From assembly GCF_040253635.1 (NCBI RefSeq), contig NZ_JBEJGX010000001.1:248001-312000 (forward strand): DNA of 64,000 nt. Direction: 5' to 3'. The position numbers and the translations under genes are program-made. The stretch comes from Streptomyces sp. Edi2 (GTDB lineage: Bacteria; Actinomycetota; Actinomycetes; Streptomycetales; Streptomycetaceae). Below are positions 42,079-60,092 of the stretch, piece after piece (the stretch's first letter is position 1; each line of letters starts with the position of its first letter). The notes beneath the pieces were generated by a model. The model did no database searches. It was not told the DNA's origin and saw only the letters and a list, made by a program, of their open reading frames with translations.

Positions 42079-42084
42079 CGCCCG

Positions 42085-42478: not shown

Positions 42479-42898
42479 TGCCACACCGACCCCGTGGCTA
42501 CCTTCTGACCGCAGAACTGGCTACCCGCTCTCTGCTGCTGTTTTCCCGGGACAGTTGGGGGGCTGCTGCTTGAACCCTGTGGTCCGCTGCTGTTCGGGAG
42601 TGCTACGTGTGCTGCTCAGTGTGGACGCTGCCCTTCGAGCGCAGTGCTGCCTGCTGCCGAACCGTCCTGCTGCGTTACCGTGCTGCTCCTCATCGCTCTT
42701 GGTGTCCCCACAAGCCCGCTGACGCCGGCCACCGTGAAGTTCAGGTCACACCTCGCGAGGCCGTGGGGCAGAAGGTTGGATACCCGTGAGCGGGAGGCAC
42801 TGCGTTTGTGGGTGGCCGGGGTACCTCGACGGCGTTCGATGCCTCGCAGCCTCCCCCAATGAGTGCTCCCGCCGCCCCTGACCGGAGCTGAGATTGAG

Positions 42899-42965
42899 GT
42901 GCAACGCAGGGTGCCGGCTCCACAACGTAGAAGCGCAACACTGAGCTGTGTTGCGGTCTGACCTG
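42899..42965. repeat. hairpin element copy X1a
   Basis: GTGCAACGCAG, then stem CGCAACAC (42934-42941) / GTGTTGCG (42948-42955) with loop TGAGCT, then CTGACCTG (42958-42965). Confidence 0.7.
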
Positions 42966-43968
42966 TACGAACCCCCGTCGAGGACGTTCCACCGACGCGT
43001 GTTGCAGGTGCGTGGCCCAGCTCTGGCAAGCCGAGGGTGGCGGCGCCTGTACCGCCGACTGCATTCGTCCCGGGTGCCGACGGGAGCTGCGCAGAGCGCC
43101 CGCATGGGCCGACGTCCCGTACCTGGTTCCGCACGGTGGGCGCCGGCGCTGCGGCCGACTGCATCAGGCCACGGTGCGCGGCTCACTCCAGCCAGGCTCC
43201 TGCATGCGCTGCTGCCCTTGGCGCGGTGCGGACGTCTGGCCAGGGGATCGGCTTAACTGCTGCCGTCGGCCATCTGGAACGGCACTGCCTTCGGCGCTAC
43301 CGCTACGGTGTGGCCGGGCCGTGCGGGCGCGCTGCTGCTGTTCACGTGCCTGCGACGTTCTGCTACAACGCCCGTGCGCCGTCTGCTGCTCTGGGCTTGT
43401 GCTGCCGTATGCCGGTTGATCTCGAGCGGTGCTGACCGTAGGAGGTGACCGAAGCTGCCGATCGTGGGATGGCGGTCGGGTTCCCCTACGGACGTTGGCG
43501 CGCTGCTCGGCCCGGATCGCAAGGCGCTCAGGTGGGAGGAGATTTCAGACGGTGGTCGGAGCACTGGAGGAAATGCGTCGGCACCTGCCGCCGACTTGGT
43601 GCAGCCCGTCGACCGCGGTGCAGCGGTGGCGCGGGTTGTTCAGTCGGAGTGTGCTGAGCGTGAGTTATCCGCCTTCTCCGAAGACTAGATCGCGGCGCTG
43701 TGCGGAGCCGTGTAGGGAGGCTGCGGGTTCACCTGGCCCAGAGGCCGTCCAACGGTGGCGGACGCCAACACCAAGAGGAGCGGCGGCGCCCCTGCTTGCG
43801 CTGGCTGGGTGCGCGTGCCAGGGGACGCTGCCACTTCGATCACGCGAACCGACTGGGCCCGACTTTGTGGCAATCACTCGAGATTCACTGCCACAGGCAG
43901 CGGCTTCGCTCTGTCCATCGGACTGCACATTGCCCATGGCCCCACGGCCACAACACAGCCAGTCCGCG

Positions 43969-44015
43969 GGTGCAACTCAGGATGCAACAGGCCACTGCGT
44001 TGCGCTCCTGACCTG
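43969..44015. repeat. hairpin element copy X1b
   Basis: GTGCAACTCAGGATGCAAC, short stem GCAAC (43984-43988) / GTTGC (43999-44003), then CTGACCTG (44008-44015). Weaker stem than the other copies. Confidence 0.6.
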
Positions 44016-44178
44016 TGTAAATGGCGCCGATCAGAGCCCGTTAGAGGTATTGCACGTCGCGTTGCACCAAGCGCGCGGTGAAAACACTGTGCGCTCCCGT
44101 GCCCGGCACCGAAAGCTGGCCATGGCCTTTCGGAGGCGCGCGGCTGCGGTTGCACGGGCATCAGCCGACACAAATTAC

Positions 44179-44223
44179 GACGCCTAAGATTTGACGCGAG
44201 CGCGCGAACTAGAGTAAATTAAT
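44179..44223 (+). promoter_or_regulatory. class-1b promoter, rightward
   Basis: Arm GACGCCTAAG (44180-44189), -35 TTGACG 44192-44197, GCGCGC in the spacer, -10 TAAATT 44216-44221 in GAGTAAATTA. Spacer 18 bp. Drives the 44-aa peptide. Confidence 0.85.
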
Positions 44224-44264
44224 GCTTGTTGTCGACGCCTTGCCACCGAGTCCCAGGAGTCCTC

Positions 44265-44399
44265 ATGAAGACCTACATCTTCGGCATCATCGCCGTCCTC
44301 GCACTGATCGCCTCGGCCGCAGCATGGTTCGTGGGTCCGTGTGAGCTGTACACCTTCGCACCGGCCAGCAAGACTCCGGCCCGATGCATGATGAAGTAG
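44265..44399 (+). CDS. 44-aa membrane peptide
   Basis: ATG 44265 four bases after AGGAGTC. One membrane helix (YIFGIIAVLALIASAAAWFV) followed by GPCELYTFAPASKTPARC and a short end. Not a recognised toxin family, though the size and a single helix fit type-I-toxin-like or secretion-accessory peptides. A decayed paralogue lies at 37355. Own class-1b promoter 45 bp upstream and a terminator seven bases after the stop. Confidence 0.65.
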   Translation: MKTYIFGIIAVLALIASAAAWFVGPCELYTFAPASKTPARCMMK

Positions 44400-44405
44400 C
44401 CGTTG

Positions 44406-44433
44406 GCAGGGCCGGTACGCACTCCGGCCCTGC
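44406..44433 (+). terminator. hairpin terminator of the 44-aa peptide gene
   Basis: Perfect 10-bp stem GCAGGGCCGG / CCGGCCCTGC with an eight-base loop. Confidence 0.75.
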
Positions 44434-44784
44434 GGCCTCGCGCCACGCCGGTGCCGCACTTCTCCGACCTGTCTGTGGTGCTCGGGGCAATGTCCCGAGC
44501 ACGTCCCAGGTAGAGGTCTCGGAGCGCGTCCGCGCCCTGATCGAGGTTGAAGCGTAGGACTCTCCGTGCTGCTGTTGCGCCGATTTGGTGCGCAGAGGGG
44601 GTGGCTCGTTGGCGGGGCGTAATCACCGAACTCACATCGGCTCCCCGAGGTCTGACGCCTCGGGGAGCTGCCGGACGCTGGGCGGGCTGTCGCGCGTAGG
44701 CGGGCTGCCGCTCAGCGACGCTCGCCCTCGCCAAGGGATAACTGCATCACCTCTGACCCCGTCACGCCGGCACTGGAGGTTTTC
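44434..44784. other. gene-poor stretch with two hairpins
   Basis: Holds a 9-bp hairpin (44478-44502, GTGCTCGGG / CCCGAGCAC) and a strong 11-bp hairpin (44640-44668, CTCCCCGAGG / CCTCGGGGAG). The second nearly repeats at 45056-45091. No supported gene. Confidence 0.5.
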
Positions 44785-45000
44785 ATCGATTACAAGTACG
44801 TCCGCGTCAGCGTATTCGGCATCGGCCAGGCTGACCTGCGCACCGTAACCCTGCTCACCGAGGAGGACATCCAGAGTGCGTACGGAGAACAGCCTGTGTA
44901 CATCACCAAGGACGTCACGAGTGTGACCGTGACCTTCGACGACGCGGGGCCGGTCTTCACATACTTCGCACAGTGCCCGGCCGACTGGGGCGAAGCCTGA
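44785..45000 (+). CDS. small protein with a non-standard (ATC) start
   Basis: The frame DYKYVRVSVFGIGQADLRTV to CPADWGEA is clearly coding (71 codons, strong third-position bias, ending at TGA 45000 before a terminator-like hairpin). No ATG, GTG or TTG is in a usable position. GGAGG lies exactly five bases before ATC 44785. Either an ATC start, a mutated ATG, or a CTG at 44773. Beta-rich, function unknown. Confidence 0.5.
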   Translation: MDYKYVRVSVFGIGQADLRTVTLLTEEDIQSAYGEQPVYITKDVTSVTVTFDDAGPVFTYFAQCPADWGEA

Positions 45001-45055
45001 CCCTCCGGTCTCGTCTTCTGCACCCTCCAGGGTGCGATCGTCGAAGTTCCGTCCG

Positions 45056-45091
45056 CTCCCCGGGGTCTGATTGGCCTGATGCCTCGGGGAG
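45056..45091 (+). terminator. hairpin terminator, near copy of 44640-44668
   Basis: CTCCCCGGGG / CCTCGGGGAG, 56 bp after the stop at 45000. Shares GGTCTGA and the stem with the hairpin at 44640. Confidence 0.6.
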
Positions 45092-45249
45092 TAGGCGACG
45101 AGCGGGTTGGCCGCTGATCGGCTCTTACATCGCGGAGACGCCCAGGACGTCCGATGGGGTTCGCCCACAGCCGATGAACGGGCCGTACCTTCCGATGCGG
45201 TGCCGAACTCGCGATGTTGCGTAGAGGAGCACAGAGAAAGAGGACCGAA

Positions 45250-45762
45250 ATGGGAGCCGAGTACTTTTCCGTCTACCAGGACGGAACCGCGGTTGAGCAC
45301 GCGTTCCGAGACGCCGTCGAAGACGCCGAGTACGAGCACGGCCACGGCGGATACACCGGCACCATCGCCGAGAAGCGCTTCTACAAGGTCGTCGCGCAGA
45401 CTCCGATGTCACTGGATGAGGCCGAGGAGTACGCCTCGAAACTCGTTGTCGGCGAGGATGCACTCCTCGCCGACAAGTGCGGCCCTGCGGGCGCCATACC
45501 AGTACTGACCGATCGGCGCAGAGTCCGCATCGTCATCCCCGAGACCCGCCAGGGATTCAAGACCAAGGAGGAGGCCGCCATCGTGGCCCTCAAGCAGAGC
45601 GGGGACCTCAAGGAAGGCGAGAAGCCCGCGTACGGGATCCAGGGCATGTACCGAACCCACCCCCGCTCCGGCTATCTGGTCTCCGGAGAGCTGGACGTCC
45701 CCTTGGCAGGCGGACCGCTGGAGCACCGCGGCTGGCTGTTCTTCGGATTCGCCTCCTACTGA
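45250..45762 (+). CDS. hypothetical protein, 170 aa
   Basis: ATG 45250 after AGAGGACC. Compact alpha/beta protein (MGAEYFSVYQDGTAVEHAFR, YGIQGMYRTHPRSGYLVSGE, HRGWLFFGFASY). No Cys. It has the look of proteins seen on Streptomyces plasmids but no assigned role. No class-1/2 promoter is visible directly upstream. Confidence 0.6.
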   Translation: MGAEYFSVYQDGTAVEHAFRDAVEDAEYEHGHGGYTGTIAEKRFYKVVAQTPMSLDEAEEYASKLVVGEDALLADKCGPAGAIPVLTDRRRVRIVIPETRQGFKTKEEAAIVALKQSGDLKEGEKPAYGIQGMYRTHPRSGYLVSGELDVPLAGGPLEHRGWLFFGFASY

Positions 45763-45786
45763 CCTGGTCGGCACTGCCGCGGCCGG

Positions 45787-46017
45787 TTGCCACGGGCGCG
45801 CCCAGCTGCTGCCGACCCTTCCGACCTGACGAGGCCGGCCGTCGACGGGCCCGCTGTCCGGGGTACGGGCCTCGTCGGCCGCCCGCTCGCCGCTGTCCGT
45901 GTCGCACGCCTGGCAATGGCCGACGAGCACGGTTTCGTCCGCGACCAGGTGCTGGTCCTTTGGGTGCCCGCCGACGGGCGGCCGGGCCTGTCTCGTTGGC
46001 GCCTCCCGTTCGGCTGA
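45787..46017 (+). CDS. possible small protein after the 170-aa gene
   Basis: Same frame as the preceding gene after its stop. The second half is coding-like (GLVGRPLAAVRVARLAMADE, HGFVRDQVLVLWVPADG). Start unclear: TTG 45787 lacks a ribosome site. Could be a fragment. Confidence 0.35.
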   Translation: MPRARPAAADPSDLTRPAVDGPAVRGTGLVGRPLAAVRVARLAMADEHGFVRDQVLVLWVPADGRPGLSRWRLPFG

Positions 46018-46371
46018 GGCCACGGCCGTCGTTGTGTCCCCGGCAAGGGAAGCTTGCGGGGCTGGCCCGACCCGGCCGGCGGCCGGCGCGCTGGGCACGG
46101 TCTCGCCCGGCTCGCCGTCGGTGCGGCGGTGGTGTGTTGTGCGGGCTGCGGGGGAGGGGTTGGGGCCAGACGACAGGACCGAAGTCCTCCACCCGGAAGG
46201 GGTGGTGTGCAAGATCGTCTGGCCCCTCCACGAAGCCCCTCCGTAGGAGTGAGCCCTGCGGGTAACTATAGCGGTCTGGCGTGCCGCAGCCCGGGGTGCG
46301 GCATTGCCGGGGCTACCGGGGCGTGTGCTGCGCTGCTCCTGGGCTGTCGCTGTCAGCATCGGTGGCTGGGG
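46018..46371. other. gene-poor stretch
   Basis: About 350 bp, no supported gene, promoter or strong hairpin. Confidence 0.45.
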
Positions 46372-46539
46372 TCAGTTCGCGAGGGTGACCAGGATGGCTC
46401 CGGTGAGACCGATGCCGGCGGTGCCTAGTCCGTAGAGGGTGACGGGGCGATGTGCGGATTCGCCGTAGAGGCGGAGTATCAGGCCCAGGCCGGTGAGGAC
46501 GATGCCGACGGTGAGGAGTGTGCGGAAGGGCTCGGGCAT
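46372..46539 (-). CDS. small two-helix membrane protein, 55 aa
   Basis: ATG 46539 seven bases after AAGGAG. Helices LLTVGIVLTGLGLILRLYG and LYGLGTAGIGLTGAILVTL. Not recognised. Lies 79 bp after the multi-winged-helix gene, likely cotranscribed. Confidence 0.55.
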   Translation of the reverse strand: MPEPFRTLLTVGIVLTGLGLILRLYGESAHRPVTLYGLGTAGIGLTGAILVTLAN

Positions 46540-46618
46540 GGTGGACTCCTTGACGGACGGGGCGTAGTGGAGGCTGCCGGTTGGCCGGTGCAGTGCTGCG
46601 GTTGCGGGTGTAGTTGTT

Positions 46619-47488
46619 CTATGTGGGGTTTTTGCCGTGGCGGGTGAGCCAGGCGCGGACTTCCTCGAGGTCGCGTGCGCCGTCGTCGTCTGCGGCCGGG
46701 AAGGGGTCGTCGCTGTCGAGGGTGTGGTTGCTCGCGTAGTTGTAGAGCGAGCCCCGGCCGATGCCCACGGCACGGGCGAGGGGAGCCATGAGCATGCGGC
46801 CGGGTGCCGGCTGGCGTCGTTTGCGGGCGGGGGCGGGCACGAGGGCGGGGACGTTGGCCTTCAGGAGGGCTTCGGCCGTCTGTGTGCCGATACCGAGCCG
46901 GGTGGCGAGTTGCTCGACGAGGCCGGCCCCTTCGGCTGCCTGGGGGTCGGTCAGGAGGGCCTCGGCGGTCTTTGTGCGGATCTTGAGCTGGGCGGCGAGC
47001 CACTCGGCCAGGGGGGTCTGCTCGGCGGTCTGGGGGTCCTGGTCCAGGATCCAGGCGCGTACCTCCGGCCAGCTGCGCCTCCGCTTGCCGTCGGCGGCCG
47101 GGAAGGGGCGGTCGGTGGTGCCGGGGCGGTAGTTGGCGGCGTAGTAGTTGACCGCCTGCCGGACGACGCCGAGGACTTCGGCCATCTCGCTGACGCTCAG
47201 GCGCAGAGCGAGCGGCGGCAGTGCGCGGGCGCGTTCGGCGAGGTTACGCGGGCCCGGGGGGTTCTCCCTCTGCGCGAACGGCTGCTTCTCAATCCAGGCG
47301 AGCACCGCCTTCTTCTTCCGTAGGCGTGTGCCGTCAGGGCCGCGGGTGCCAGACGGGAAGGTCGGGTCCTGGGCCCAGTTGCGCAGGACCGAGGCGCGTT
47401 GGCGGCCGGTGGCCTCGGCGATCTGATCGGTATCGATGTCCTCGGGCAGGGCGGCGAAGGCTGCGCGGATGTCGGTGAGGGGCTTCAC
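46619..47488 (-). CDS. multi-winged-helix DNA-binding-like protein (paralogue of 29134-30063)
   Basis: 289 aa from GTG 47488 after GGAG. Three modules, each an HTH followed by a PFPA/W spacer and a VRxWL/VLAWI close: IDTDQIAEATGRQRASVLRN (19-38), then LSVSEMAEVLGVVRQAVNYY with WPEVRAWIL, then MAPLARAVGIGRGSLYNYAS with DLEEVRAWL. Between modules 2 and 3 sit two near-identical helical repeats (LAAQLKIRTKTAEALL, LATRLGIGTQTAEALL). Strong candidate sequence-specific regulator. The 29.1-kb paralogue lies in class-1 territory and this one in class-2 territory. Confidence 0.65.
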   Translation of the reverse strand: MKPLTDIRAAFAALPEDIDTDQIAEATGRQRASVLRNWAQDPTFPSGTRGPDGTRLRKKKAVLAWIEKQPFAQRENPPGPRNLAERARALPPLALRLSVSEMAEVLGVVRQAVNYYAANYRPGTTDRPFPAADGKRRRSWPEVRAWILDQDPQTAEQTPLAEWLAAQLKIRTKTAEALLTDPQAAEGAGLVEQLATRLGIGTQTAEALLKANVPALVPAPARKRRQPAPGRMLMAPLARAVGIGRGSLYNYASNHTLDSDDPFPAADDDGARDLEEVRAWLTRHGKNPT

Positions 47489-47564
47489 GGGTGGGTCTCC
47501 TGGTCGGGGGTGAGGAGGCGGTGGGCGATCCCTCGCCCGTGGCCACGCTCTGACGTCGGGCGGG

Positions 47565-47726
47565 TTAAGTGTGCGCGGTGCGGGTGCGGCGGTTGGTCAT
47601 GCGCTGCTTGATCTGTTCCTGGGTGGGCGGAGTCCAGCGGTGCCAGCCGGCCGCGGTGGACCACCTCTGCAGGTGTTCGTGCTGGTCGATGCCGCAGTGC
47701 CGGCATGCGCTCGGGGTGGCGGGCAT
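47565..47726 (-). CDS. 53-aa zinc-finger-like protein (paralogue of 48638-48805)
   Basis: ATG 47726 eight bases after AAGGAA. ACRHCGIDQHEH and STAAGWHRWTPPTQEQIKQR are shared almost unchanged with the 55-aa protein 0.9 kb upstream. One CxxC plus His could form a small zinc site. Class-2 promoter 60 bp upstream. Confidence 0.6.
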   Translation of the reverse strand: MPATPSACRHCGIDQHEHLQRWSTAAGWHRWTPPTQEQIKQRMTNRRTRTAHT

Positions 47727-47785
47727 GGGCGAGGTTCCTTCGGTCAGGGCCGTCAGGTCCGGGGAGGGACCTTCCGCGTATGGGT

Positions 47786-47816
47786 AATTTATTCAAAAAT
47801 GCCGAAGGCGTGTCAA
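47786..47816 (-). promoter_or_regulatory. class-2 promoter
   Basis: Minus strand: -35 TTGACA 47811-47816, -10 TAAATT 47786-47791 in AATAAATTACC, spacer 19 bp. No leader hairpin. Confidence 0.7.
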
Positions 47817-47936
47817 TGCTGCCCGGTGCGGCGGGCTTCTGTGGGCCCGGCCGTCGGGCCTTGCGGCCCGCCAGGGGATGGCATCCAGCCTCGGGCGGCG
47901 GCGGGACCGGCCGGTGGGGCCCGGGGCCGCCGCCGC

Positions 47937-48128
47937 TCAGGAGCCGCGAGCGGCTTGCCACGCGCAGGGGAGGCAATACCAGACCACGAGCCAGTCCTCG
48001 CCGAGCGCTGCGCCGGTGGGGTGGATGTCCCGCTCAGTTGCCGTGCCTTCGCAGCAGGTGTGGCCGATCTCGCACTCGGGGGCGGTCGAGAGCATGGCTT
48101 CGAGGGTGGCGGTGTCGGTGCGGTCCAT
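47937..48128 (-). CDS. small Cys-rich protein, 63 aa
   Basis: ATG 48128 after GGAGAAGCCC. ECEIGHTCCEGT (about 18-29) and VVWYCLPCAW (about 48-57) give Cys pairs for one zinc site. Expressed from the class-2 promoter and leader at 48151-48227. Confidence 0.55.
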   Translation of the reverse strand: MDRTDTATLEAMLSTAPECEIGHTCCEGTATERDIHPTGAALGEDWLVVWYCLPCAWQAARGS

Positions 48129-48150
48129 GGGCTTCTCCCCGGGTTGGGCG

Positions 48151-48227
48151 CTTCGTGGTGGCGGTGCGGGACTTGCCTCCCCTCAGCCATTAATGAGTAA
48201 TTTAGCCATGTACTGCGAAGGTGTCAA
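48151..48227 (-). promoter_or_regulatory. class-2 promoter with conserved leader
   Basis: Minus strand: -35 TTGACA 48222-48227, -10 TAAATT 48199-48204 (GGCTAAATTACT), spacer 17 bp. The transcript begins with GGGAGGCAAGTCCC hairpin and CACCGCCACCACGAAG (48181-48151). Confidence 0.8.
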
Positions 48228-48637
48228 GCCTGGGGGTGTGCGTGTTCCGTCAGGTCATGGATCGATCGGGGAGCATGCGCCGATGCCCGTGGATCCGCCG
48301 GGGACGTCGTCGGGTGCCGTGTCAGCCACAGCCCTGAGGCAGGCCCGGGGCGCGGAGCGGGGACAAAGGACGGTGCCCCGTGTCACGGCCGGACGGAAGG
48401 GAAGGGCGGTAGCGACGGGGCGTCAGGGTCCGGCGGCCATGCCACGCGATGCGACGGTGCGCAGTGCGGCGGCTGTGGCGTGCGGCGGGGTCAGGTACTG
48501 CGTGACCGCCTCGGTCCGAGCGGTGAAGGTGGCCGGTCAGTGGGATCCGTCCTCCTTGCCTGCGACCGCCTGAGGGTATGGCGGTGCAGCGCGAGGAGCA
48601 GTTGCGCCGTGCGCTTTGCGTTCTGGCGCTGGGCGGG
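48228..48637. other. gene-poor stretch
   Basis: About 410 bp, no supported gene on either strand. Confidence 0.45.
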
Positions 48638-48805
48638 TCAGCTGTGCGCGGTGCGGGTGCGGCGGCGCTCGATCATGCGCTGTTTGATCTGTTCCTGGGT
48701 GGGCGGGGTCCATCGGTGCCAGCCGGCGGCAGTGGTCCACTGCCGCGCGTGTTCGAGGTGGCCGATGCCGCAGTGCCGGCAGGCGCTCGGGGTGATGCAG
48801 GGCAT
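48638..48805 (-). CDS. 55-aa zinc-finger-like protein (paralogue of 47565-47726)
   Basis: ATG 48805 after AAGGAA. SACRHCGIGHLEH and TTAAGWHRWTPPTQEQIKQR match the downstream paralogue; about 40 of 53 positions agree by eye. No class-2 promoter directly upstream, so it is probably read from further upstream with 48948-49331. Confidence 0.6.
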   Translation of the reverse strand: MPCITPSACRHCGIGHLEHARQWTTAAGWHRWTPPTQEQIKQRMIERRRTRTAHS

Positions 48806-48947
48806 GGGGCGAGGTTCCTTCGGGTCTGGGGTGTCAGGTGGCCAGGGCGGGGCCGAGCGGGTGGCGCGCCGTGGCCCGGTGTCGCTGAGGTGGTGGCGGA
48901 TAGCGGCGCCCGGTGCCAGGTGAGCGGGCTTTGCGCCCAGCGGTGTA

Positions 48948-49331: not shown

Positions 49332-49498
49332 GACGTGCCTTCCTGGTCGTCGGGGCCTTTGGCCGGGGGTGCGGGCGTTCGTGCAGCGGGCGGACGTGGT
49401 AGAGCGGGATGGGGCCGGCTCCGCGCCGGAGCCCCCGTTCCAGGGCCCGGAGACGGTTGCGGCGCCGGGCGCCCTTCGACATGGCGGTTGCCCTGGTG

Positions 49499-49771
49499 TC
49501 AGCTCACTGACGGCTGGAGCGCGTCGAGCATGCGGCCGTCCACGTCGTTGCCGACATCTTCCCGCGCAGCGTACTCGGCGTCGACGACCTCCTCGTGGGA
49601 GAACGAGAAGCTTCCGCCACCGTGGTATGCCGTGACATCGGGGCCGGTCTGCGCCACGGCGCTCACGTCCAAGAGGTCCAGCAGCGCGGCCCTGGCCTGA
49701 TCCAGGGTCAGGGAGTCGCTCTTGATGAGCTGGCGGAGTGTGTCCTGTCGTTCCTGGGCGCGCTGGTCCAT
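49499..49771 (-). CDS. hypothetical acidic protein, 90 aa
   Basis: ATG 49771 after GGAGAAGCCC, a start region shared with 48128 and 51725. Helical start (QERQDTLRQLIKSDSLTLDQ), acidic end (SHEEVVDAEYAAREDVGNDV). Not recognised. Behind the class-2 promoter and leader at 49794-49870. Confidence 0.55.
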   Translation of the reverse strand: MDQRAQERQDTLRQLIKSDSLTLDQARAALLDLLDVSAVAQTGPDVTAYHGGGSFSFSHEEVVDAEYAAREDVGNDVDGRMLDALQPSVS

Positions 49772-49793
49772 GGGCTTCTCCTCGGGTTGGGCG

Positions 49794-49870
49794 CTTCGTG
49801 GTGGCGGTGCGGGGCTTGCTTCCCCGGTACCGCCAATAGGTAATTTAGCCAAATATTGAGTTAATGTCAA
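49794..49870 (-). promoter_or_regulatory. class-2 promoter with conserved leader
   Basis: Minus strand: -35 TTGACA 49865-49870, -10 TAAATT 49842-49847 (GGCTAAATTACC), spacer 17 bp. Leader hairpin CGGGGAAGCAAGCCCCG at 49826-49810, then CACCGCCACCACGAAG. Confidence 0.85.
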
Positions 49871-50002
49871 CTCTGATTCGGGTCACGGACCGTGGCTGGG
49901 CCTTGGTGTGTAGGTCGGGGGCAGGATGCGCCGTGGGGTAGGTGGCGCGGATCCCGAGAGAGCTGGCGCCCGGGATGGCGGTAAGCGGGGAGTGCAGCGT
50001 GA

Positions 50003-51326: not shown

Positions 51327-51725
51327 TCAGCGGTCATACGCGTCGGTGGTCAGGTCTACGTGCCCCTCGCGTGCCTCGTACGCGGCCCGCAGCGCGGCCG
51401 CGGTCTTCTCCGGCGGGATCGCGACGATTCCGTAGAGCAGCTGCATCGCGTCGGTGACGTCCTCCACGGTGACTTCTCCACGCGCGGTCAGGCGCTCCTG
51501 GGGCATCAGCCTGCGCCAGGTGACGTCGTAGAGGGCGCGGCGTGCGAGGGAGATGGCTGCGTCGGCGGCGGTGCGGAGCTGCTGGTCGAACCGGGCCGTG
51601 AGCTCCGCATCCCGACGGTGTCGGCTTACGCGGGCCGCGAGCGGCGCGGCGAGGGCGCGGACCGCGCGCCCCAGGAAGACGCGCGTACGGGCGTTGGCGA
51701 GGTGGGGCTGCTGGGTCGCGGTCAT
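51327..51725 (-). CDS. hypothetical helical protein, 132 aa
   Basis: ATG 51725 after GAGGAGAAGCCC. Long basic helices (RTRVFLGRAVRALAAPLAAR, DQQLRTAADAAISLARRALY), then EVTVEDVTDAMQLLYGIVAI. No Cys. Not recognised. Behind the class-2 promoter and leader at 51750-51823. Confidence 0.55.
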   Translation of the reverse strand: MTATQQPHLANARTRVFLGRAVRALAAPLAARVSRHRRDAELTARFDQQLRTAADAAISLARRALYDVTWRRLMPQERLTARGEVTVEDVTDAMQLLYGIVAIPPEKTAAALRAAYEAREGHVDLTTDAYDR

Positions 51726-51749
51726 GGGCTTCTCCTCGTCGGGGTGCGG

Positions 51750-51823
51750 CTTCGCAGTGGCGCGGGGCTTGCCTCCCCTCAACCACTGGTGGGTAATTTA
51801 GTCATGGAATAGCGGCATGTCAA
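51750..51823 (-). promoter_or_regulatory. class-2 promoter with conserved leader
   Basis: Minus strand: -35 TTGACA 51818-51823, -10 TAAATT 51795-51800 (GACTAAATTACC), spacer 17 bp. Leader GGGGAGGCAAGCCCCGC (51777-51761), then GCCACTGCGAAG. Confidence 0.85.
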
Positions 51824-52017
51824 ATCGCGGGGAATTCGCGCGCGTTCCGTCCGGACGTGGTCGGCTCGGTGCGGTCTGCGGCGACGTCCTGCTCGACCTC
51901 ACGGCGCCATTCCCTGTTCTCGCGGGCGCGTTCGGTGCCGTGGTGGAGTTCCTTGGGGTTGTGTCCGTGACAGCAGTAGTCGCGGCGCTTGCCCTCGCGG
52001 GTCATCATCCGTGCCAT
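51820..52017 (-). CDS. small basic protein, 65 aa
   Basis: ATG 52017 five bases after GGGAGAG. Very charged (MARMMTREGKRRDYCCHGHN, RARENREWRREVEQDV), one CC-HGH cluster. Its end overlaps the promoter of the next leftward gene. Similar in style to the 69-aa basic protein at 55658. Not recognised. Confidence 0.5.
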   Translation of the reverse strand: MARMMTREGKRRDYCCHGHNPKELHHGTERARENREWRREVEQDVAADRTEPTTSGRNAREFPAI

Positions 52018-52130: not shown

Positions 52131-52724
52131 TCAGGCGTGGGTGGTGCGGCCCAGGTGGATGGCGGCCGCGTTCGGCGTGCCGCTGTAGGTGCGGCCGCCG
52201 GTGGTGACCGTGATCGCGCGGGGCCGGACCCGGTCGGGGGTGTCGTAGCGGGCGAGCAGCGGGGCGGTGATGGTGTGTACGGCCGTCTTGGAGGGGCCGC
52301 CGCCCCAGGTCACGGTGATGTCTCCCCGCTTGCGGTCCTGGCCGCAGCGTACGGAGAACTTCACGCCGGGGAAGGCGGCACGCAGCTGGCGGCGCAGGTA
52401 GGCGGCGGTGGCCTTGGTGGAAACCCGCATGTCGGCCTGGTTGAGCTCCTCCTCGCCGATGACCGGCGTGACGGAGGTGTGGCGCACGTGGTAGGGGCCG
52501 GTGGTCCGACCTTCGAGGGTGCGCAGCTCGTAGCGGGGGGCGGGGATTCCGCGCCGGACATCGCGGGTGCACCAGCGGCAGCTGCAGGGGTGGACGGTCC
52601 ATTCGCCGTGCGCGGCGTCGACGCTGCCGTGGTAGGTGACGCGGGCCCCGGGGGTCAGGCGCAGTGCGCGGTACTCGGGGGTGTGCAGGTCGCTGGTGCT
52701 GAAGACGGTGTCCGTGCTGCTCAT
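52131..52724 (-). CDS. LPD29-domain-like protein
   Basis: 197 aa, ATG 52724 after GGGAGG. N-terminal part with VHPCSCRWCTRDVRRG (Cys cluster, about 44-60). Then a segment with STKATAAYLRRQLRAAFPGV followed by KFSVRCGQDRKRGDITVTW, the signature of the large polyvalent-protein-associated domain 29 seen in mobile-element proteins. Such domains occur in proteins thought to act in recipient cells during transfer or infection. Standalone here. Class-2 promoter and leader just upstream. Confidence 0.6.
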   Translation of the reverse strand: MSSTDTVFSTSDLHTPEYRALRLTPGARVTYHGSVDAAHGEWTVHPCSCRWCTRDVRRGIPAPRYELRTLEGRTTGPYHVRHTSVTPVIGEEELNQADMRVSTKATAAYLRRQLRAAFPGVKFSVRCGQDRKRGDITVTWGGGPSKTAVHTITAPLLARYDTPDRVRPRAITVTTGGRTYSGTPNAAAIHLGRTTHA

Positions 52725-52744
52725 GGCGGGCCCTCCCTGGTGAC

Positions 52745-52823
52745 GTTCGTGGCGGCGGCCAGCGGGGCTTGCCTCCCCGCACCGCTTGATAGGTAAGTTA
52801 GTCAACTGATGCGCAAGTGTCAA
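52745..52823 (-). promoter_or_regulatory. class-2 promoter with conserved leader
   Basis: Minus strand: -35 TTGACA 52818-52823, -10 TAACTT 52795-52800 (GACTAACTTACC), spacer 17 bp. Leader GCGGGGAGGCAAGCCCCGC hairpin at 52780-52762. Confidence 0.85.
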
Positions 52824-52905
52824 ATCCGCTGGACCTCAACTCCTGTCCGGATCCGGCATGTTGACGGTCAACACCCCGGGCCCGGTGCACAGTCGGTCCG
52901 CAGGC

Positions 52906-53109: not shown

Positions 53110-53121
53110 CCCAAGAGGCGT

Positions 53122-53157: not shown

Positions 53158-53253
53158 GTTGTTGCCGCATCGGAACGGCCGAACGCAGCTCCCGCACCTC
53201 GGCCGCCCCACGCCCCACGCCCCCGTGGGGCGGTCCTCGCCCTGCCGCCGGGG

Positions 53254-53814: not shown

Positions 53815-53998
53815 CAGGGGGATCTCCGTTCGTCCGGGTGTCCGGGGCCAGGCCGGGCGGAACTCCGCACATACAGGGCCGGGAGGGTGCCAGCTGGGCA
53901 CAAGCGGGCGGGGCTCCCGGTTCGGACGGCTTCGTAATGGCCAGTGCGGGGCTTGTGGGGGCGTGTGGGGCCCGGCCTCGAAGGCCGGGCGGGCTGGG

Positions 53999-54445
53999 TC
54001 AAGAAAGGCGGGTGCGGCGGTATTCCTGCATGCGGCCTGCCCACCAGGACCGAGGGGTGGCGCCGCGGGCGATGTCGTTCTTGACGGAGGCCGGAATGTT
54101 GCAGCGCCCGGGGCGTGCCGTACGCCAGGCGACGATGTCGGCCTCCAGCAGGGCTGCGTCATCGGGGTGCTTGGCGGTGAACTCAGCCCACACGGCTGCC
54201 TGGCGGGCTTCGATGGCGGCAACTCGAAGGAGGCGGGCGGCTTCGGCGGCGGTGAGGGTCCAGCCAGTGACCTTTTTGCAGCAGCCGCGGCCGACGGTCA
54301 TCGTCTGGCCGGTGACTCGGTTCTCGACGTCGTAGAGGTTCTTGAGGGAGCGGGGGCAGTGGTCGCACTTTTGACCGGCCTGGCTGCTGCGGATGCCGAT
54401 GAGGTTCCAGTCGGTGGTGCCGATCTTGGCTGCGATGGTGGTCAT
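53999..54445 (-). CDS. hypothetical protein with N-terminal zinc-like motif, 148 aa
   Basis: ATG 54445 after AAGGAGAAGC. KCDHCPRSLKNLYDVENRVT (about 26-45) followed by VGRGCCKKVTGWTL (about 52-65) forms a Cys4-type unit seen in several Streptomyces element proteins. C-terminal half helical and basic (TARPGRCNIPASVKNDIARG). Function unknown. Class-2 promoter upstream. Confidence 0.6.
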   Translation of the reverse strand: MTTIAAKIGTTDWNLIGIRSSQAGQKCDHCPRSLKNLYDVENRVTGQTMTVGRGCCKKVTGWTLTAAEAARLLRVAAIEARQAAVWAEFTAKHPDDAALLEADIVAWRTARPGRCNIPASVKNDIARGATPRSWWAGRMQEYRRTRLS

Positions 54446-54466
54446 GCGCTTCTCCTTCGGCGAGGG

Positions 54467-54539
54467 CTTCGTGGTGGCCGGTTTGGGGCTTGCCTCCTCC
54501 AGTAATGAGTAATTTAGTCATGTTGAGCATTGGCGTCAA
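54467..54539 (-). promoter_or_regulatory. class-2 promoter with conserved leader
   Basis: Minus strand: -35 TTGACG 54534-54539, -10 TAAATT 54511-54516 (GACTAAATTACT), spacer 17 bp. Leader GGAGGAGGCAAGCCCC, then CCGGCCACCACGAAG. Confidence 0.8.
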
Positions 54540-54985
54540 GTACCTTATGTGCTGCGGCGTCCGTTGCGTGTGCGATCTGGCCGGCGCTGCGCCATCGCCC
54601 GCACCCCGCCAGCCCGATGCGCCCGGCCTCGTCGAGTACGCGCACCGCACCACCGCCGTGGTGTCCCCATGCTGACCTGAGGACCGCTTCGGCGCGCCTG
54701 TCGGGCCGGCGTAGCGATCCGTGCAGCGCTGCTTCTTCCGGCACCCCAGGCCGCCGACTGCAGCACCCTGAGCGGATCACCGGCAGGGCGTCGCGGGGGC
54801 GCTTGCCGACCGCCTACGGGCGGCTGCTGTGCTCGCGCTGCCAGCCCTGCGCGCCGGTGCCCGGAATCACGCGCCTGCTCGCATGCCGGGGCGAGTGCAG
54901 CTGGGTGGCGTGCCGCATGCATGTACCGGCCGGGGGAGCTCCGACCGGGTACAAGCGGGCGCGGACGGCAGCGGACGGCGCTGGC
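54540..54985. other. gene-poor stretch with a possible zinc-ribbon fragment
   Basis: On the plus strand from TTG 54803 the frame LPTAYGRLLCSRCQPCAPVP and ACRGECSWVACRMHVPAGG is coding-like. It has no ribosome site and only ends properly (TAG 54986) after a frameshift. Probably a broken small gene; the first 250 bp are empty. Confidence 0.35.
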
Positions 54986-55591
54986 TTAGATCAGGCCGAG
55001 GGTCGGCACCAGGATGCTAGGCGCCAGGTCGATGACACCGTCGGCGTACCGCTCGCGCATCATCGGGTCGGCCTGCACGTGGCGGGCGTCGACCCGTACC
55101 CGCATCCGGGTGCGCAGCGGCAGCTGCGGCTCAAGGTCGGGATCGAGCACCGTGGCACGCCAGTTTTGAGAGGCGACGACGCGGTCACCGGGCTGTACCT
55201 GCTCGATCAACGCCCTGCGCAGGCGCGGCCCGGCCGCCAGGTAGGGCGACAGGCTCTCGCGCAGCGCGCCGAACCTCTCGTTTTCCGCCTCGCTCGGCGA
55301 GCCTCGCACGAGGGTCACCTCAAGGCGGGTGAATTCGCTGAGCCTGTCGCTGAAGTCGGGGACCGCCGCGGGTGATGTGCCGGTGGCCAGCAGGTCCACG
55401 GGCTCGTTCCAGATCGGGCGGTTGTAGATGTCCGCGTCGTCGGCGGTGAGAACGGCGACGTGTACGCCTTCGACGTCGTAGACCTGGCGCACCGTGCCCG
55501 TCCGGCCACGGGGTCCGGTTGCGGTCTTTCCGAGCCATGGCGAGGTGCGGACCATTTCGACGTGCGGGATGAGTTCAGAATCGGTGTTCAC
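54986..55591 (-). CDS. hypothetical protein, 201 aa
   Basis: GTG 55591 eight bases after AGGAG. The first half has GKTATGPRGRTGTVRQVYDV and VHVAVLTADDADIYNRPIW (SH3-like beta strands). Middle helices follow (GALRESLSPYLAAGPRLRRA). The end is beta-rich (RMRVRVDARHVQADPMM). Not recognised. Last gene of a leftward unit with 55658-55867 and 55967-56458. Confidence 0.55.
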   Translation of the reverse strand: MNTDSELIPHVEMVRTSPWLGKTATGPRGRTGTVRQVYDVEGVHVAVLTADDADIYNRPIWNEPVDLLATGTSPAAVPDFSDRLSEFTRLEVTLVRGSPSEAENERFGALRESLSPYLAAGPRLRRALIEQVQPGDRVVASQNWRATVLDPDLEPQLPLRTRMRVRVDARHVQADPMMRERYADGVIDLAPSILVPTLGLI

Positions 55592-55657
55592 TGGCGTGAC
55601 TCCTGGGGTTCGTGGTAACTGCCGGTCCCGGTGGCATGACGTCGTATGCCGGGCGCG

Positions 55658-55867
55658 TCAGTGGGCGTCGCGGTCGACGCGGCGGCGCTGCGAACGCGGG
55701 GCTTCGCCGCCAGTGCGCAGCGCGTGGCGTACAGCGGCCCGGTCGCGCTTGTGTGCGGCCTTCTGGTGTCCGGTGCGGCCGCCCTCGCCTGCGAAGCGGC
55801 CGCGGTGGCCGGCGCGCCGGTCGGTGGCCTGGACGCGGTCGGGACGGTGGTGCCAGGTACGCGCCAT
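55658..55867 (-). CDS. small Arg/His-rich protein, 69 aa
   Basis: ATG 55867 after GGGAG. Arg, His and Gly make up most of the protein (MARTWHHRPDRVQATDRRAG, HKRDRAAVRHALRTGGEAPR); third positions are nearly all G/C, so it is likely real. Possibly nucleic acid-binding. A degenerate class-2 leader copy (55883-55920) precedes it. Confidence 0.5.
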   Translation of the reverse strand: MARTWHHRPDRVQATDRRAGHRGRFAGEGGRTGHQKAAHKRDRAAVRHALRTGGEAPRSQRRRVDRDAH

Positions 55868-55966
55868 GGTTCGACTCCCGGTGCTTCGTGGTGGTCAGTG
55901 CGGGGCTTGTGGGGGCTCGTGGGTGAACCCCCGTGGCCGGGCCGCTGTGCAGCCCGGCCACGGTTG

Positions 55967-56458
55967 TCAGCTGCGCTCGGCGCGGCTGCGGACGGCCAGC
56001 AGCCGCAGCTGTACCCAGTCGCAGCCCACCGAGACGCGCATCGAGTTGTCCGGCTGCAGCTGGAAGTCGCCGAGCGGGGTGTGCGGGCCCGCGGCGGCGC
56101 GGAACGCCTCGAACGCACGGAAGGGGTCGCAGAACACGCCCTTCAGGCAGCCGCCCATGTACTCCTCACCCTCCTCCAGTACCCACACGGCGGACACCGG
56201 GCCGGTGACGCGATAGGGCTTGAGGGACAGCGAGTCGCCCCCCGCCTTCAGTCGTACCGAGCCCTCCGGCTCTTGGCGCACACCCTCGACGTGCTCGTAC
56301 AGCCCCCGCACCTCGGTGATGAACTCACGGAGCCCGAGGGCGAACTCGTCGAAGGCGCCGAGGATGCGACCACCCTCCATGTACTCGGCGCGCTCCAGGA
56401 GCCATACAACCGGCCCCTTGGTGACGGCGGAGGGCTGCTGGGTCTGCGTCGCGATCAT
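55967..56458 (-). CDS. hypothetical acidic protein, 163 aa
   Basis: ATG 56458 five to six bases after AAGGAGA. Two similar halves by eye (VVWLLERAEYMEGGRILGAF, VWVLEEGEEYMGGCLKGVF), suggesting an internal duplication. Not recognised. Class-2 promoter and leader directly upstream. Confidence 0.6.
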   Translation of the reverse strand: MIATQTQQPSAVTKGPVVWLLERAEYMEGGRILGAFDEFALGLREFITEVRGLYEHVEGVRQEPEGSVRLKAGGDSLSLKPYRVTGPVSAVWVLEEGEEYMGGCLKGVFCDPFRAFEAFRAAAGPHTPLGDFQLQPDNSMRVSVGCDWVQLRLLAVRSRAERS

Positions 56459-56478
56459 GCTTCTCCTTCGGTAGGGGA

Positions 56479-56554
56479 TTCGTGGGGCCGGCCCGAGGCT
56501 TGCCTCCCCGCACCGTCTAGTAGGTAATTTAGTCAATATTGGATCATGCGTCAA
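56479..56554 (-). promoter_or_regulatory. class-2 promoter with conserved leader
   Basis: Minus strand: -35 TTGACG 56549-56554, -10 TAAATT 56526-56531 (GACTAAATTACC), spacer 17 bp. Leader GCGGGGAGGCAAGCCTCG then GGCCCCACGAA. Confidence 0.85.
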
Positions 56555-56720
56555 GTTGGTGCCGCCATCCACTCGACCCCCACGCATTCCGCATGCGCAC
56601 TGACTGCCGCGCACTGCCGCACGGCCGAAATCGACGCGGATGCCTACCCGTCCCGCCGCCCGCGGATTAATCAGGGTGAGCCGATGAGGTCGAGGGGGGG
56701 TTCGCCCGGAACGCGGCGAC

Positions 56721-56802
56721 TTGACGTCATGGCGATAGTTGGCTAGATTACCTATCAGGCGTTGCGAGAAGGTAAGCCCCGCACCGGCCACCCGCAAAGC
56801 GC
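56721..56802 (+). promoter_or_regulatory. class-2 promoter with leader, rightward
   Basis: -35 TTGACG 56721-56726, -10 TAGATT 56744-56749 (GGCTAGATTACC), spacer 17 bp. Leader contains GAAGGTAAGCCCCGCACCGG and CACCCGCAAAG, a divergent copy of the class-2 leader. Confidence 0.75.
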
Positions 56803-56928
56803 ACACCTACGCGACGAGAAGAACTGAACACCGCGCCTGTGAAAGGGCCCAAGAACACGGGTCCCTTCACAAGTCCGTGCCGATGCCGAGGGGTGCTTCG
56901 ACAGCACCCGCAGACCCGGAGGAACTTG

Positions 56929-57123
56929 ATGAGCAAGGAGCTCGCCGCCGCCATCGAGCGGGACGACCTGCTGGAGGGTGCGGGGATGCATCCGGACGAC
57001 CGCAAGACGTGCTGGACCCACCAGACCTGGGCGGCCGATTGCGAGGACCGGCACATGCGGCCCACAGCAGGCCGGCTCCTCGCGGAGGCCCTGGAGCTTG
57101 AGCGCATCCGCGCCGCACGCTGA
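56929..57123 (+). CDS. hypothetical protein, 64 aa
   Basis: ATG 56929 after GGAGGAACTTG. Acidic helix (KELAAAIERDDLLEGAG) followed by DDRKTCWTHQTWAADCEDRH, whose Cys/His spacing could bind one metal, and a helical end (RLLAEALELERIRAAR). Not recognised. Rightward, 180 bp from its class-2 promoter with a structured leader. Confidence 0.55.
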   Translation: MSKELAAAIERDDLLEGAGMHPDDRKTCWTHQTWAADCEDRHMRPTAGRLLAEALELERIRAAR

Positions 57124-57386
57124 GCAGCGCATCCACCTCCTGGCGGAGCAGCGTCAGCCGGTCCGCCGCTGCTCCGCGTTGCCCGCGGAAGCCCTGTTGA
57201 TACGGCACTCGTGAACGCTGCTGGGCTGGGGCCGGCTGTCCTGCCCATGCCCGAGCACTGAGCCCGGGTCGCGACCGACACGGCACGCGCGCTCCTCGAA
57301 GCTGGCGACACAGCCAGCGCCTTCACCCATTCACTCAGCCCTGTCTCCTCGAGCTCGCCGCGGCTGTAGCGGTCCTGTAGGCGTCG

Positions 57387-57569
57387 TCACTTTCCGGTGG
57401 CGCGCTGGCAGGCGGGGCAGGTGACGGGGTTGTCGTCGGCCAGGAACTCGCCGTCCTCGGCGATCCTGTTGCATGCCGTGACGCGGTCGGCGAATCCAGA
57501 CGCGTACCCGGCGGCGTGGGTGTGTCGGCCACGCGGGAGGCGTACTCGCTCGGGCCACTTCGTGCTCAT
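57387..57569 (-). CDS. small zinc-binding-like protein, 60 aa
   Basis: ATG 57569 after GAGGACACC. Basic (STKWPERVRLPRGRHTHAAG) with ACNRIAEDGEF and VTCPACQRATGK at the end, a CPACQ knuckle. Similar short CxxC proteins are common on Streptomyces phages and plasmids. Second gene of the unit from 58222. Confidence 0.55.
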   Translation of the reverse strand: MSTKWPERVRLPRGRHTHAAGYASGFADRVTACNRIAEDGEFLADDNPVTCPACQRATGK

Positions 57570-57696
57570 AGTCGGTGTCCTCTCTGCGGGGTGCCGCAGT
57601 TGCGGGACCAGTCATTGCGGTTCATGACGCGGCCCACCTGCGGGGGAGGGGGCCGGGGTGCGGTGCGCAGGGCCCTGTTGCCGGTTTGTGGTGCTA

Positions 57697-58158
57697 TCAG
57701 GAGCACATGGCGTAGGCGTCGTCATAGGCATCGGGCTGGTGGGGGTGCTCGCCACCATGGCCGAGTACGTAGGCGCGCAGTATCTCGGCGGGGACATGGG
57801 GGTACCAGCGGACGTCGTCGTCTTCGTAGTGCGCCTCGCGCAGTTCCCAGCGGATGTCGGCGGTGGCGCTGGGCTCGGGTGCGGGCCAGTCGGCGGGAGC
57901 GTGGCGGGGGCCGTCGAGGAAGTCGGGGCCGAAGTCGATGCCGACGCACAGGGTGGTGTAGGGGCCGGGGTAGTCGGCGGGTACGTCGAAGAAGCTGTCG
58001 CGGTTCCAGCGGTAGAGGCGCTCCGGTGCCGGGGTGGGGGTGCAGGTGGTCTCGGGTCCGGCGGCCACGATGATCCACTGGTCGTCGGCGAGGAGGATGC
58101 GGTGGGGGACGCCGCGGGTGCCGTGTGTGATGGCGGCGTCAGTGAGCGTGGTGATCAC
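57697..58158 (-). CDS. hypothetical acidic protein, 153 aa
   Basis: GTG 58158 five bases after GGAGG. Acidic, Asp/Tyr/Pro-rich (DVPADYPGPYTTLCVGIDFG, REAHYEDDDVRWYPHVPAEI). Not recognised. Class-2 promoter 64 bp upstream; its leader keeps CACCACC but not the hairpin loop. Confidence 0.55.
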   Translation of the reverse strand: MITTLTDAAITHGTRGVPHRILLADDQWIIVAAGPETTCTPTPAPERLYRWNRDSFFDVPADYPGPYTTLCVGIDFGPDFLDGPRHAPADWPAPEPSATADIRWELREAHYEDDDVRWYPHVPAEILRAYVLGHGGEHPHQPDAYDDAYAMCS

Positions 58159-58221
58159 AAGTCCTCCGGTTTGCGCGGTCGCTCGCGTGGTGGGTGGTGG
58201 GCCCCTCGACCATTAGCAGGT

Positions 58222-58250
58222 AATTTAGCCAGATCGTGAGAGCATGTCAA
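58222..58250 (-). promoter_or_regulatory. class-2 promoter
   Basis: Minus strand: -35 TTGACA 58245-58250, -10 TAAATT 58222-58227 (GGCTAAATTACC), spacer 17 bp. Confidence 0.85.
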
Positions 58251-58746
58251 GTCATGACGGCCGGGCGCTGGACGGCTGCCGCGATCTAGATGGAGGATGC
58301 GCGACGTAGTACGGCCGCTTCTGGCTCATCCCGATTGGTGTCGGGCACCGGCGCGCTTGCGGTCACAGAGTTCTCCTGCGCTGCCACGCCAACCCCGCCG
58401 GCTACCTTCCGCTCGCAGCAAGGGCTACCAGCCCCTGCTGCCCTCCCGGCGGGGACGGGGGATGCAACCTGCTGCTTCGAACCCTGCGATCCGCTGCTAT
58501 TCGTGAGTGCTACACGTGCTGCTGAGTGCGACTGTTACCTTCGGCAGCGCCGTGCCGCCGGCTGTCGCACCGTGCCGCCGCGCTGACGTGCTGCTCCCCA
58601 TCACGCATGGTGTCCCCACTCGGTAGCCTGCTGACGGTGATGGCCTCCGAAACGCACCGTCACGCCCCCAGCGTTGTGTCTCTCGGGGCGGTCGGGGCAC
58701 TCGACGGCGGGCAGGACCCGCCGGCTTCCTGCGGCCGCTCGCTCCG

Positions 58747-58814
58747 GTGCAACGCGGGGCGTTGGCTTTGCAACGCAGATGCGCAACACCGAGAGGCGTT
58801 GCGGGGCTGACCTG
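58747..58814. repeat. hairpin element copy X2a
   Basis: GTGCAACGCGG and TGCAACGCAG, stem CGCAACACC (58782-58790) / GGCGTTGCG (58795-58803) with one mismatch, then CTGACCTG (58807-58814) and CGCAAA. Confidence 0.7.
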
Positions 58815-59590
58815 CGCAAACACTAGCCGAGGACTGTCTGCCGGAGCGTGTTGCAGTACGCGACCGACGAAACGTGAGCTCTGTCTGCCGGACGGCATTC
58901 GCCCCAAGGAGATGTAGCCACGTACGTGGACCGATATCCCGCTCTGCACCTGGTTCCCGCACGGCACGAGTCGACGTGGCGGCCAACTACACGTGCGTAA
59001 GCCGCCGCGGCTCACTTCGGTTCGCTTGCGCCACGAGCCGAGGTGTGCGGCGGCCTCTGGCAGTGGATCGACAAACTGCTGCCTTCGGGCATGGTGCAAA
59101 GTCGCTGCCCTGTGGTGCTGCTGCTTCGGTGTGGCCAGACCATGCGGGCGCGCTGCTGCTCACGCCGCTGCACCGTAGGAGCGCCCACGCTGCCTGAAGG
59201 CGCGAGATTCGTGCTGCTACCGCATCCCAGCACCGTCCATTGCCCTTGGCTGTGCCGTCGTACCCCAACTGGTCTCTTCACGCCGACAGAGCCAGACGTG
59301 GGCCCGCCGGTCGCGATCCCCTCCCTTTCGAGCTCCTGCCGGCCTTCGACAGGTCCAGTACGGACAATCCGCTTGTGGCAGGGCACGGTGTGCGTCCGTG
59401 ATCACTAGGTGCCCAAGCAAAACGACTCCAGGCGCCGATCAGATCGGTTGAGAAGCGCGAGCAGCGGTCAGCCTCATCCACCGACTTCGCCTGCGGCTGC
59501 GGGGGCTCCAGTCAGAGTGTGGTGATCTCGGGAGTTATTCGCCGTTCGCAGCGGGACCACGGCGCTGCGCTGTCCTTTGGCAACGAACCT

Positions 59591-59843
59591 GGACCGATTG
59601 CCACCGAAGATGGACCAACGCCGTTTCTTGACGGCGAAGATGGACCGCCGCAGGTCAGGAGCGCAGAGCCCACCCGCAGTAGGGTCGGCCCAAGTACGGC
59701 GTCCTCTGCGAGCAAGCCAGCCCGGATATGCCCGCCGTTCGTCTGCCAGTCCACTCCACAGCTGACTCCATCGCGCTGACTTGCGGCGGTCCATCTTCGA
59801 TGACACAAACAGCCGTCAGTCCAACTTCGATGGCAACCGGTCC
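59591..59843. repeat. nested inverted repeat with CGAAGATGGACC motifs
   Basis: 59591-59612 pairs with 59843-59822 (19 of 22 positions), and 59632-59658 pairs with 59802-59776 (24 of 27). Each arm contains CGAAG-ATGG or CGAAGATGGACC, so the motif occurs twice in each orientation around a 117-bp core. Confidence 0.65.
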
Positions 59844-59897
59844 GCCTTCGCTGTCACAGGTCATGCGCGGAGCCGCTGCAACGCGGCCAGCCTGTGA

Positions 59898-59954
59898 GTG
59901 CAACGCAGGATGCAACGCAGAGGTGCAACACGACTGTGTTGCACCTCTGACCTG
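59898..59954. repeat. hairpin element copy X2b
   Basis: Two TGCAACGCAG direct repeats, then a perfect 14-bp stem (59918-59931 with 59936-59949) around GACT, overlapping CTGACCTG (59947-59954), then CGCAAA. The best-formed copy. Confidence 0.8.
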
Positions 59955-60092
59955 CGCAAAGATTGCTGATCGGGAACCGTCAGGAGTGTGGCACGTCGAA
60001 GGAGGTCTGGCAGCGCGGCAGCGGCACGAGGTGGGAGGTGCCTGGAGTCCAGGGGCCTCGGCCTGCCGAGGGGTAGGTGTCGGGGGCGCCAG

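Follow-up and report, generated by a model that had tools for sequence, protein, structure and literature searches.

Iteron sites on plasmids are an already known kind of DNA element, and several described systems resemble the two related, gene-free modules, X1 and X2, that are discussed here. The modules lie in a stretch of 64,000 nucleotides of Streptomyces sp. Edi2 (the window), which corresponds to positions 248001-312000 of a contig of 328,740 bp (C1). The Streptomyces theta plasmids pWTY27, pFP1 and pFP11 likewise possess short gene-free stretches in which direct repeats of 7-8 bp occur together with inverted copies, and RepA of pWTY27 binds a long inverted repeat at a locus with such direct repeats (PMC3583192). 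Unlike loci of the pWTY27 type, X1 and X2 have no adjacent rep gene, and there are two modules with two elements in each, every element with a constant core. The sps sites bound by SpdA2 of pIJ101 are also DNA sites for plasmid stability; they are 12-bp palindromes located in spdA or close to it and have neither a core nor an iteron array (PMC4170104), and the half-site GTCAC resembles the word TGTCACG found on the sister plasmid of C1, whereas the word on C1 differs.

The same element, with the iteron word TGCAAC and the core, is present upstream of the telomere operon tap-tpg in the genomes G346 and G335 (NCBIfam telomere_Tap and telomere_Tpg; in G335 the upstream TGCAAC copies are degenerate only) and upstream of a tap-like gene in pFRL1, whereas X1 and X2 are not beside tap. 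Phage P4 carries iterons at its origin (ori1) and at a distant cis site (crr), and one initiator serves both. This pair of iteron sites is reminiscent of the modules, although the distances differ, and relatives of two P4-type primases were not found in C1.

C1 is taken as a linear plasmid of which a few kb are missing on the right, because its two contig ends carry inverted copies of an 11,111-bp repeat (99.3% identity; the right copy runs to the contig end and the left copy begins at base 3,171) and because it encodes a Tap-like protein (31% identity; gene at 99-101 kb) and shows a weak match to Tpg, under the curated cut-off. A second contig of the same genome (C2; 297,118 bp) is a sister of C1 with many orthologues, and the two coexist in one cell.

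Homology and non-coding nature of X1 and X2

X1 (42476-44070, + strand) and X2 (58379-59998, + strand, insert included) are delimited by their colinear homology. They lie in the two largest gene gaps on C1 (41990-44226 and 58158-60093), as predicted by a simple custom GC-frame gene finder over the whole contig; further predicted gaps of 1.7-1.9 kb are located outside the window at C1 71198-73079 and 204139-205808. Self-BLAST of the window reveals homologous blocks in the same order over approximately 1.5 kb, in agreement with the initial annotation. The colinear chain scores 441 bits; 100 dinucleotide shuffles reach no more than 149.5, and X1 compared with 100 random segments of the window no more than 152.2. 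The block that opens X1 (42476-42724) is the best conserved with X2 (58379-58636; 73.8% over 263 columns, E 5e-36), and further blocks are found at 42898-43007 and 58746-58856 (74.8%), 43235-43339 and 59056-59160 (78.5%), and 43951-44059 and 59879-59998 (67.5%). The best stretch, given earlier as 64 bp with about ten differences, has 53 matches and thus 11 differences (42563-42625 and 58469-58532).

No reading frame is conserved between the modules, as had also been proposed. Of the 35 gaps in the alignment, 23 have a length not divisible by three, and a steady codon phase of mismatches was not found across 14 ungapped blocks of at least 40 columns; one poorly alignable block (43683-43778, 43% identity) has mismatches skewed by phase (25/20/10). 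None of ten open reading frames (ORFs) in or overlapping X1 and X2 has a Pfam match at E 0.1, and two of these are without a relative at E 0.001 in a large protein set, scoring for one of them being restricted to the 7,998 candidates sharing the most words. Identity in the ungapped blocks spans 36% to 83%, blocks of 74-83% alternating with stretches of 36-60%. This range is unexpected from a neutral duplication and supports the view that selection probably acts on X1 and X2 as non-coding sequence.

Whole modules are not recovered from plasmid records, and it is the shorter elements that recur. X1 gave zero matches at 1e-5 as a plasmid query and is represented in other genomes of the genus by short pieces only (at most 72 bp; 22 of 391). 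X2 matches 59 of 294 other genomes, 43 of them on an insert and 16 only on other short pieces; all 16 plasmid records that match X2 fall on the insert as well. This insert of approximately 300 bp (about 59571-59864; self-inverted match 59560-59875), which resembles a transposon of the miniature inverted-repeat transposable element type, is not in X1, is unrelated to the module and forms no part of it, a point on which the initial annotation has to be corrected. Terminal inverted repeats bounding the modules were not found; the insert alone has such ends.

Iteron-core elements and their recurrence

Each module possesses two elements of approximately 110 bp that run the same way. The order within an element is direct iterons (TGCAACRC, with 12-22 bp spacing), an inverted copy, and the core CTGACCTGYRCAAA; a further inverted iteron follows 40-50 bp beyond the core in three of the four elements, E2b being without an exact one. 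All four lie on the + strand. E1a (42897-43007) has its core at 42958-42971, iterons at 42900 and 42935 and inverted copies at 42948 and 42999; its profile score of 107 bits includes its own sequence as part of that profile. E1b (43970-44070) has its core at 44008-44021, iterons at 43971 and 43983 and inverted copies at 43997 and 44059. The elements of X2 are E2a (58748-58856; core 58807-58820, iterons 58748, 58769 and 58783, inverted copies 58796 and 58848) and E2b (59877-59980; core 59947-59960, iterons 59877, 59899, 59911 and 59924, inverted copy 59936). The core variants TACGAA and TGTAAA are found in X1, and the core-to-core distance is 1,050 bp in X1 and 1,140 bp in X2 with the insert included. 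Several direct repeats of one short word together with inverted copies, as expected of an iteron origin, are therefore present; the array is partly degenerate, with just two exact direct iterons each in E1a and E1b.

TGCTGC-rich blocks precede the first element (42476-42724 and 58379-58636, + strand) and separate the two elements (43235-43339 and 59056-59160, + strand) in each module. This word occurs 12 times in X1 and 9 times in X2, where approximately 1.1 copies are expected per module, and the reverse word 0 and 1 times. A TGCTGC-rich gap at 290 kb of C2 was considered as a related site and rejected, being GC-rich repetitive DNA with no element match.

The source genome contains 11 occurrences of the pattern CTGACCTGYRYRAA: four belong to X1 and X2, seven are chromosomal, and no such iterons were seen by eye in the flanks of six of the latter seven. 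The pattern GTTGC-N4-CTGACCTGYRYRAA, which demands one GTTGC plus the core and does not require extra upstream words, is found in 6 of 392 genomes of the genus, the source genome included. Further exact upstream TGCAAC words number three each in G232, G305 and G346 and two in G078, where a gene with a Tap match lies approximately 1.3 kb from the element. In G232, a 7.4-Mb contig (chromosome) has the element 2.6 kb from either end, flanked by a gene with a helicase-associated domain and a YaaC-like gene. Outside C1, the distance from the replicon end is 3 to 40 kb for elements on several plasmids and one chromosome. A BLAST search with the G346 region upstream of tap identified 47 plasmids, all from Streptomyces (9 with at least 80% of the query covered), among which the element itself was read in pFRL1 and G335; the G232 element identified four plasmids, and is near the right end in the three that were read (NBC_00111, NBC_01547 and NBC_00158). 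A tighter pattern gave 13 matches in a broader set of genome contigs. Five of these, all in Streptomycetaceae, carry at least three additional GCAAC/GTTGC words, a number reached at 100 of 20,000 background positions on C1 and C2. They come from S. exfoliatus, S. omiyaensis, S. sp. A1136, S. gardneri and Streptacidiphilus anmyonensis, three of these genomes being G346, G078 and G305 of the genus search. The remaining eight, among them one Streptomyces and one Actinomadura, are without extra iteron words. Eleven of 199 genomes matched in a further core-pattern scan, and those outside the source genome fail the iteron test of the flanks. C1's own tap-like gene has no element match.

The iteron word is exchangeable around the constant core. 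The elements of C2 are single and have the same core as those of C1 and another word, TGTCACG; they are located at 12,714 (core CTGACCTGCAAAAAC) and 5,407 (core TTGACCTGCGGAAA). The first is upstream of the orthologue of the gene of unknown function adjoining X2 (57697-58158, - strand; 37% to C2 12840-13253), that is, in the place orthologous to X2. NBC_00239 has counterparts of both C2 elements, and others are present in NBC_01304 and S. halstedii. The latter carries two TGTCACG elements running the same way approximately 0.7 kb apart, a pair like that of X1 or X2, in a 1.2-kb stretch without annotated genes in the PLSDB gene table, which is known to be incomplete. A third word (TTCCGGCAWTGCC) forms a cluster at 75.6 kb of NBC_00111, within an annotated gene of unknown function and directly preceding a DnaB-like gene. 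Both main words are found near the left ends of pFRL1 and NBC_01547; a plasmid is thus not strictly limited to one word.

Elements outside tap face the nearer end in 20 of 20 cases. An element was counted if its core is recognisable, its word is one of the two main ones and the ends of its record are known (C1, 4; NBC_01304, 3; C2, NBC_00239, S. halstedii, NBC_01547 and G232, 2 each; NBC_00111, NBC_00158 and pFRL1, 1 each), and the set represents a related and selected sample of approximately eight lineages. Sites without a clear core were left out (C2 146.3 kb and 239.7 kb, pFRL1 4.2 kb, NBC_01547 3.9 kb, NBC_01304 229.6 kb), as were C2 site 14,609, which has another word, a 41.9-kb BLAST match in S. 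halstedii and the draft contigs G305 and G078. For the tap type, all 30 elements among the matches listed (of 47 records) face outward, as tap itself does; 15 of these are from S. clavuligerus.

Possible functions of the modules

We give roughly an even chance to the reading that X1 and X2 are diverged copies of one cis-acting DNA module of the origin or maintenance class, the iterons of which would be bound by a plasmid protein. Such a module may function as an accessory origin, in copy or incompatibility control, or as a segregation site. In the mechanism that we prefer, the plasmid's own initiator or maintenance protein would load onto the iterons, much as RepA of pWTY27 binds its own repeat, and the core would serve either a shared host factor or a strand-opening or priming step. 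Such an accessory site would act together with the central rep locus and would not replace it. The results in favour of this reading are the conserved blocks within poorly alignable sequence, the architecture of the elements, their recurrence near the ends of linear replicons, the constant core with its changing words, the cores at some replication loci and the outward orientation; protein binding and the functional class are inferred.

The core was also sought at replication loci. A strict core scan (TGACCTGC-N1..3-AAAC) of 16 plasmid records, picked for carrying elements or relatives of window genes, gave 16 sites, and none with the reversed control; iteron architecture is apparent by eye at 10 of the sites. 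In NBC_00158 and S. anulatus the core is embedded in repeat-rich DNA, at a distance of 0.5-0.7 kb upstream from a primase-polymerase gene. The core is thus common to some replication loci, not all. The initial annotation held that the known replication and conjugation parts do not explain the modules; this is only partly right, as the element recurs upstream of tap-tpg and the core also lies within the repeats of some replication loci.

A number of observations speak against an origin or maintenance function. The modules, at 290-308 kb, are far from the rep-like genes of C1 (122-124 kb and 212-215 kb) and have no initiator gene beside them; the genes flanking the elements are unrelated, and the binding protein is so far only postulated. 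The lowest-GC 60-bp windows of both gene gaps fall outside the modules, which therefore lack the A+T-rich stretch of an origin. The strict core is missing from 8 of the 16 records scanned, of which S. halstedii and NBC_01547 have variant cores, and 6 of the 16 strict-core sites show no iteron architecture by eye. A strict test for 6-mer repeats separates core sites only moderately, with at least five copies at 5 of 16 sites, compared to 228 of 3,000 positions taken at random and 192 of 1,983 taken from intergenic DNA; the elements of C1 score 3, 3, 4 and 5. Four other regions upstream of primase-polymerase genes, three picked by repeat similarity and one in NBC_00111, are all without the full core, and the idea that it is a general part of primase-polymerase origins, which had two loci found via the core in its favour, was rejected on this ground. 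Finally, the three cores of the third-word cluster of NBC_00111 face away from the nearer end.

Among the alternatives, we consider it unlikely that the elements are operator or promoter cassettes, in which a plasmid regulator on the iterons would control the gene beside each element. The element at the tap locus does sit in the tap promoter region, and several single elements are approximately 60-160 bp upstream of an inward-running gene, as read from the coordinates. The flanking genes are mostly unrelated to one another, however, and the distance from the first iteron to the neighbour gene is 0.9 kb in X1 and 0.6 kb in X2. In S. halstedii a gene at 42215-42661 separates the match to the C2 element (41939-42141, a BLAST match in which the exact core was not found) from the usual neighbour at 42768-43181. 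Element pairs across 1.5 kb also exceed the needs of one operator. For tap an operator role is fitting; for the other elements, with their unrelated neighbours, it is not. The layout of an oriT comprises iterons, a hairpin and an adjacent constant core, and the elements resemble it; hairpin and core might accordingly be read as a nick region, or as a clt-like loading site for conjugation. Among the proteins of C1 are an AAA_10 ATPase, which we read as VirB4-like, and a TcpC-like protein, and NBC_01547 encodes a MobF relaxase. On the other side, the MobF protein finds no relative in C1, a Pfam scan covering 50 of the 280 predicted C1 proteins detected no relaxase family, and several copies per plasmid, together with those at the chromosome ends of G232, are atypical of oriT. 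We regard a transfer site as quite improbable.

The centromere (segregation site) of a partition system would be a special case of the origin or maintenance reading, and its small likelihood is contained in the estimate for the latter. The iteron words differ between the coexisting sisters C1 and C2, and a ParA relative is present in C2 and was not found in C1 (three ParA queries, E 1e-4), which suggests that C1 may use another partition system. Known Streptomyces plasmid parS sites are 13-19-bp inverted repeats around or in par genes (PMC13245405, PMC12260392), unlike the iteron arrays described here; moreover, parAB of NBC_01547 and of NBC_00111 has no element beside it, and pFRL1 and NBC_01547 carry both words. 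Structured noncoding RNA genes would agree with modules that are gene-free, conserved and furnished with hairpins, but the window has no Rfam match at the gathering score, and shuffled sequences fold as well as the first approximately 1 kb of each module (z +1.0 and -0.9; + strand, 20 shuffles each). RNA genes are not supported by these results and appear very improbable; of the initial proposal that selection acts on DNA or RNA, the DNA part is retained, and DNA is favoured as the target by this limited set of tests. Decayed copies of a gene or transposon, the outcome that the initial annotation named as refuting its view, are not supported either, and we attach hardly any weight to them: the transposon-like insert could point that way, but it lies within X2 and is missing from X1, and apart from it neither a conserved frame nor, for the ORFs tested, a Pfam or protein relative was found.

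Surroundings and significance

Other features of C1 deserve brief mention. A promoter-like cassette, consisting of TTGAC, a spacer of approximately 18 bp, TGRCTARATTAC and then RGRGARGYAAGCCYC, is present in seven copies between X1 and X2: six on the - strand (48060-48260, 49700-49900, 51660-51860, 52690-52890, 54390-54590 and 56410-56600) and one on the + strand (56700-56870). Six of the seven directly precede an ATG, and the set looks like one regulon. To the right of X1, a small open frame overlaps the first member of a repeat pair (44278-44393 and 37359-37476, 76% DNA identity). Two RNA-ligase genes are located on one plasmid arm (window 11892-13166 and 33964-34731), and C1 also encodes an NAD-dependent DNA ligase.

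In the literature searched, which was thin on subscription journals, we found neither an account of a constant core combined with exchangeable words at linear replicon ends nor one of paired gene-free iteron modules. A broader proposal, which we put forward as speculative and rather unlikely, is that the elements represent a portable family of end-proximal control sites in linear Streptomyces replicons, with a constant core, exchangeable iterons and an orientation facing the nearer telomere. A host factor would read the core and plasmid-specific proteins the iterons, and X1 and X2 would be doubled orphan stations, origin-like or for end maintenance, acting with the telomere proteins.

To our knowledge, little is understood of how internal replication, telomere completion and segregation are coordinated in linear Streptomyces plasmids. 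The DNA element described here is short and testable: its core is constant and its words can change, it points to the ends, and tap-tpg upstream regions have it too. Sister plasmids that carry different words in one cell constitute a natural compatibility test.

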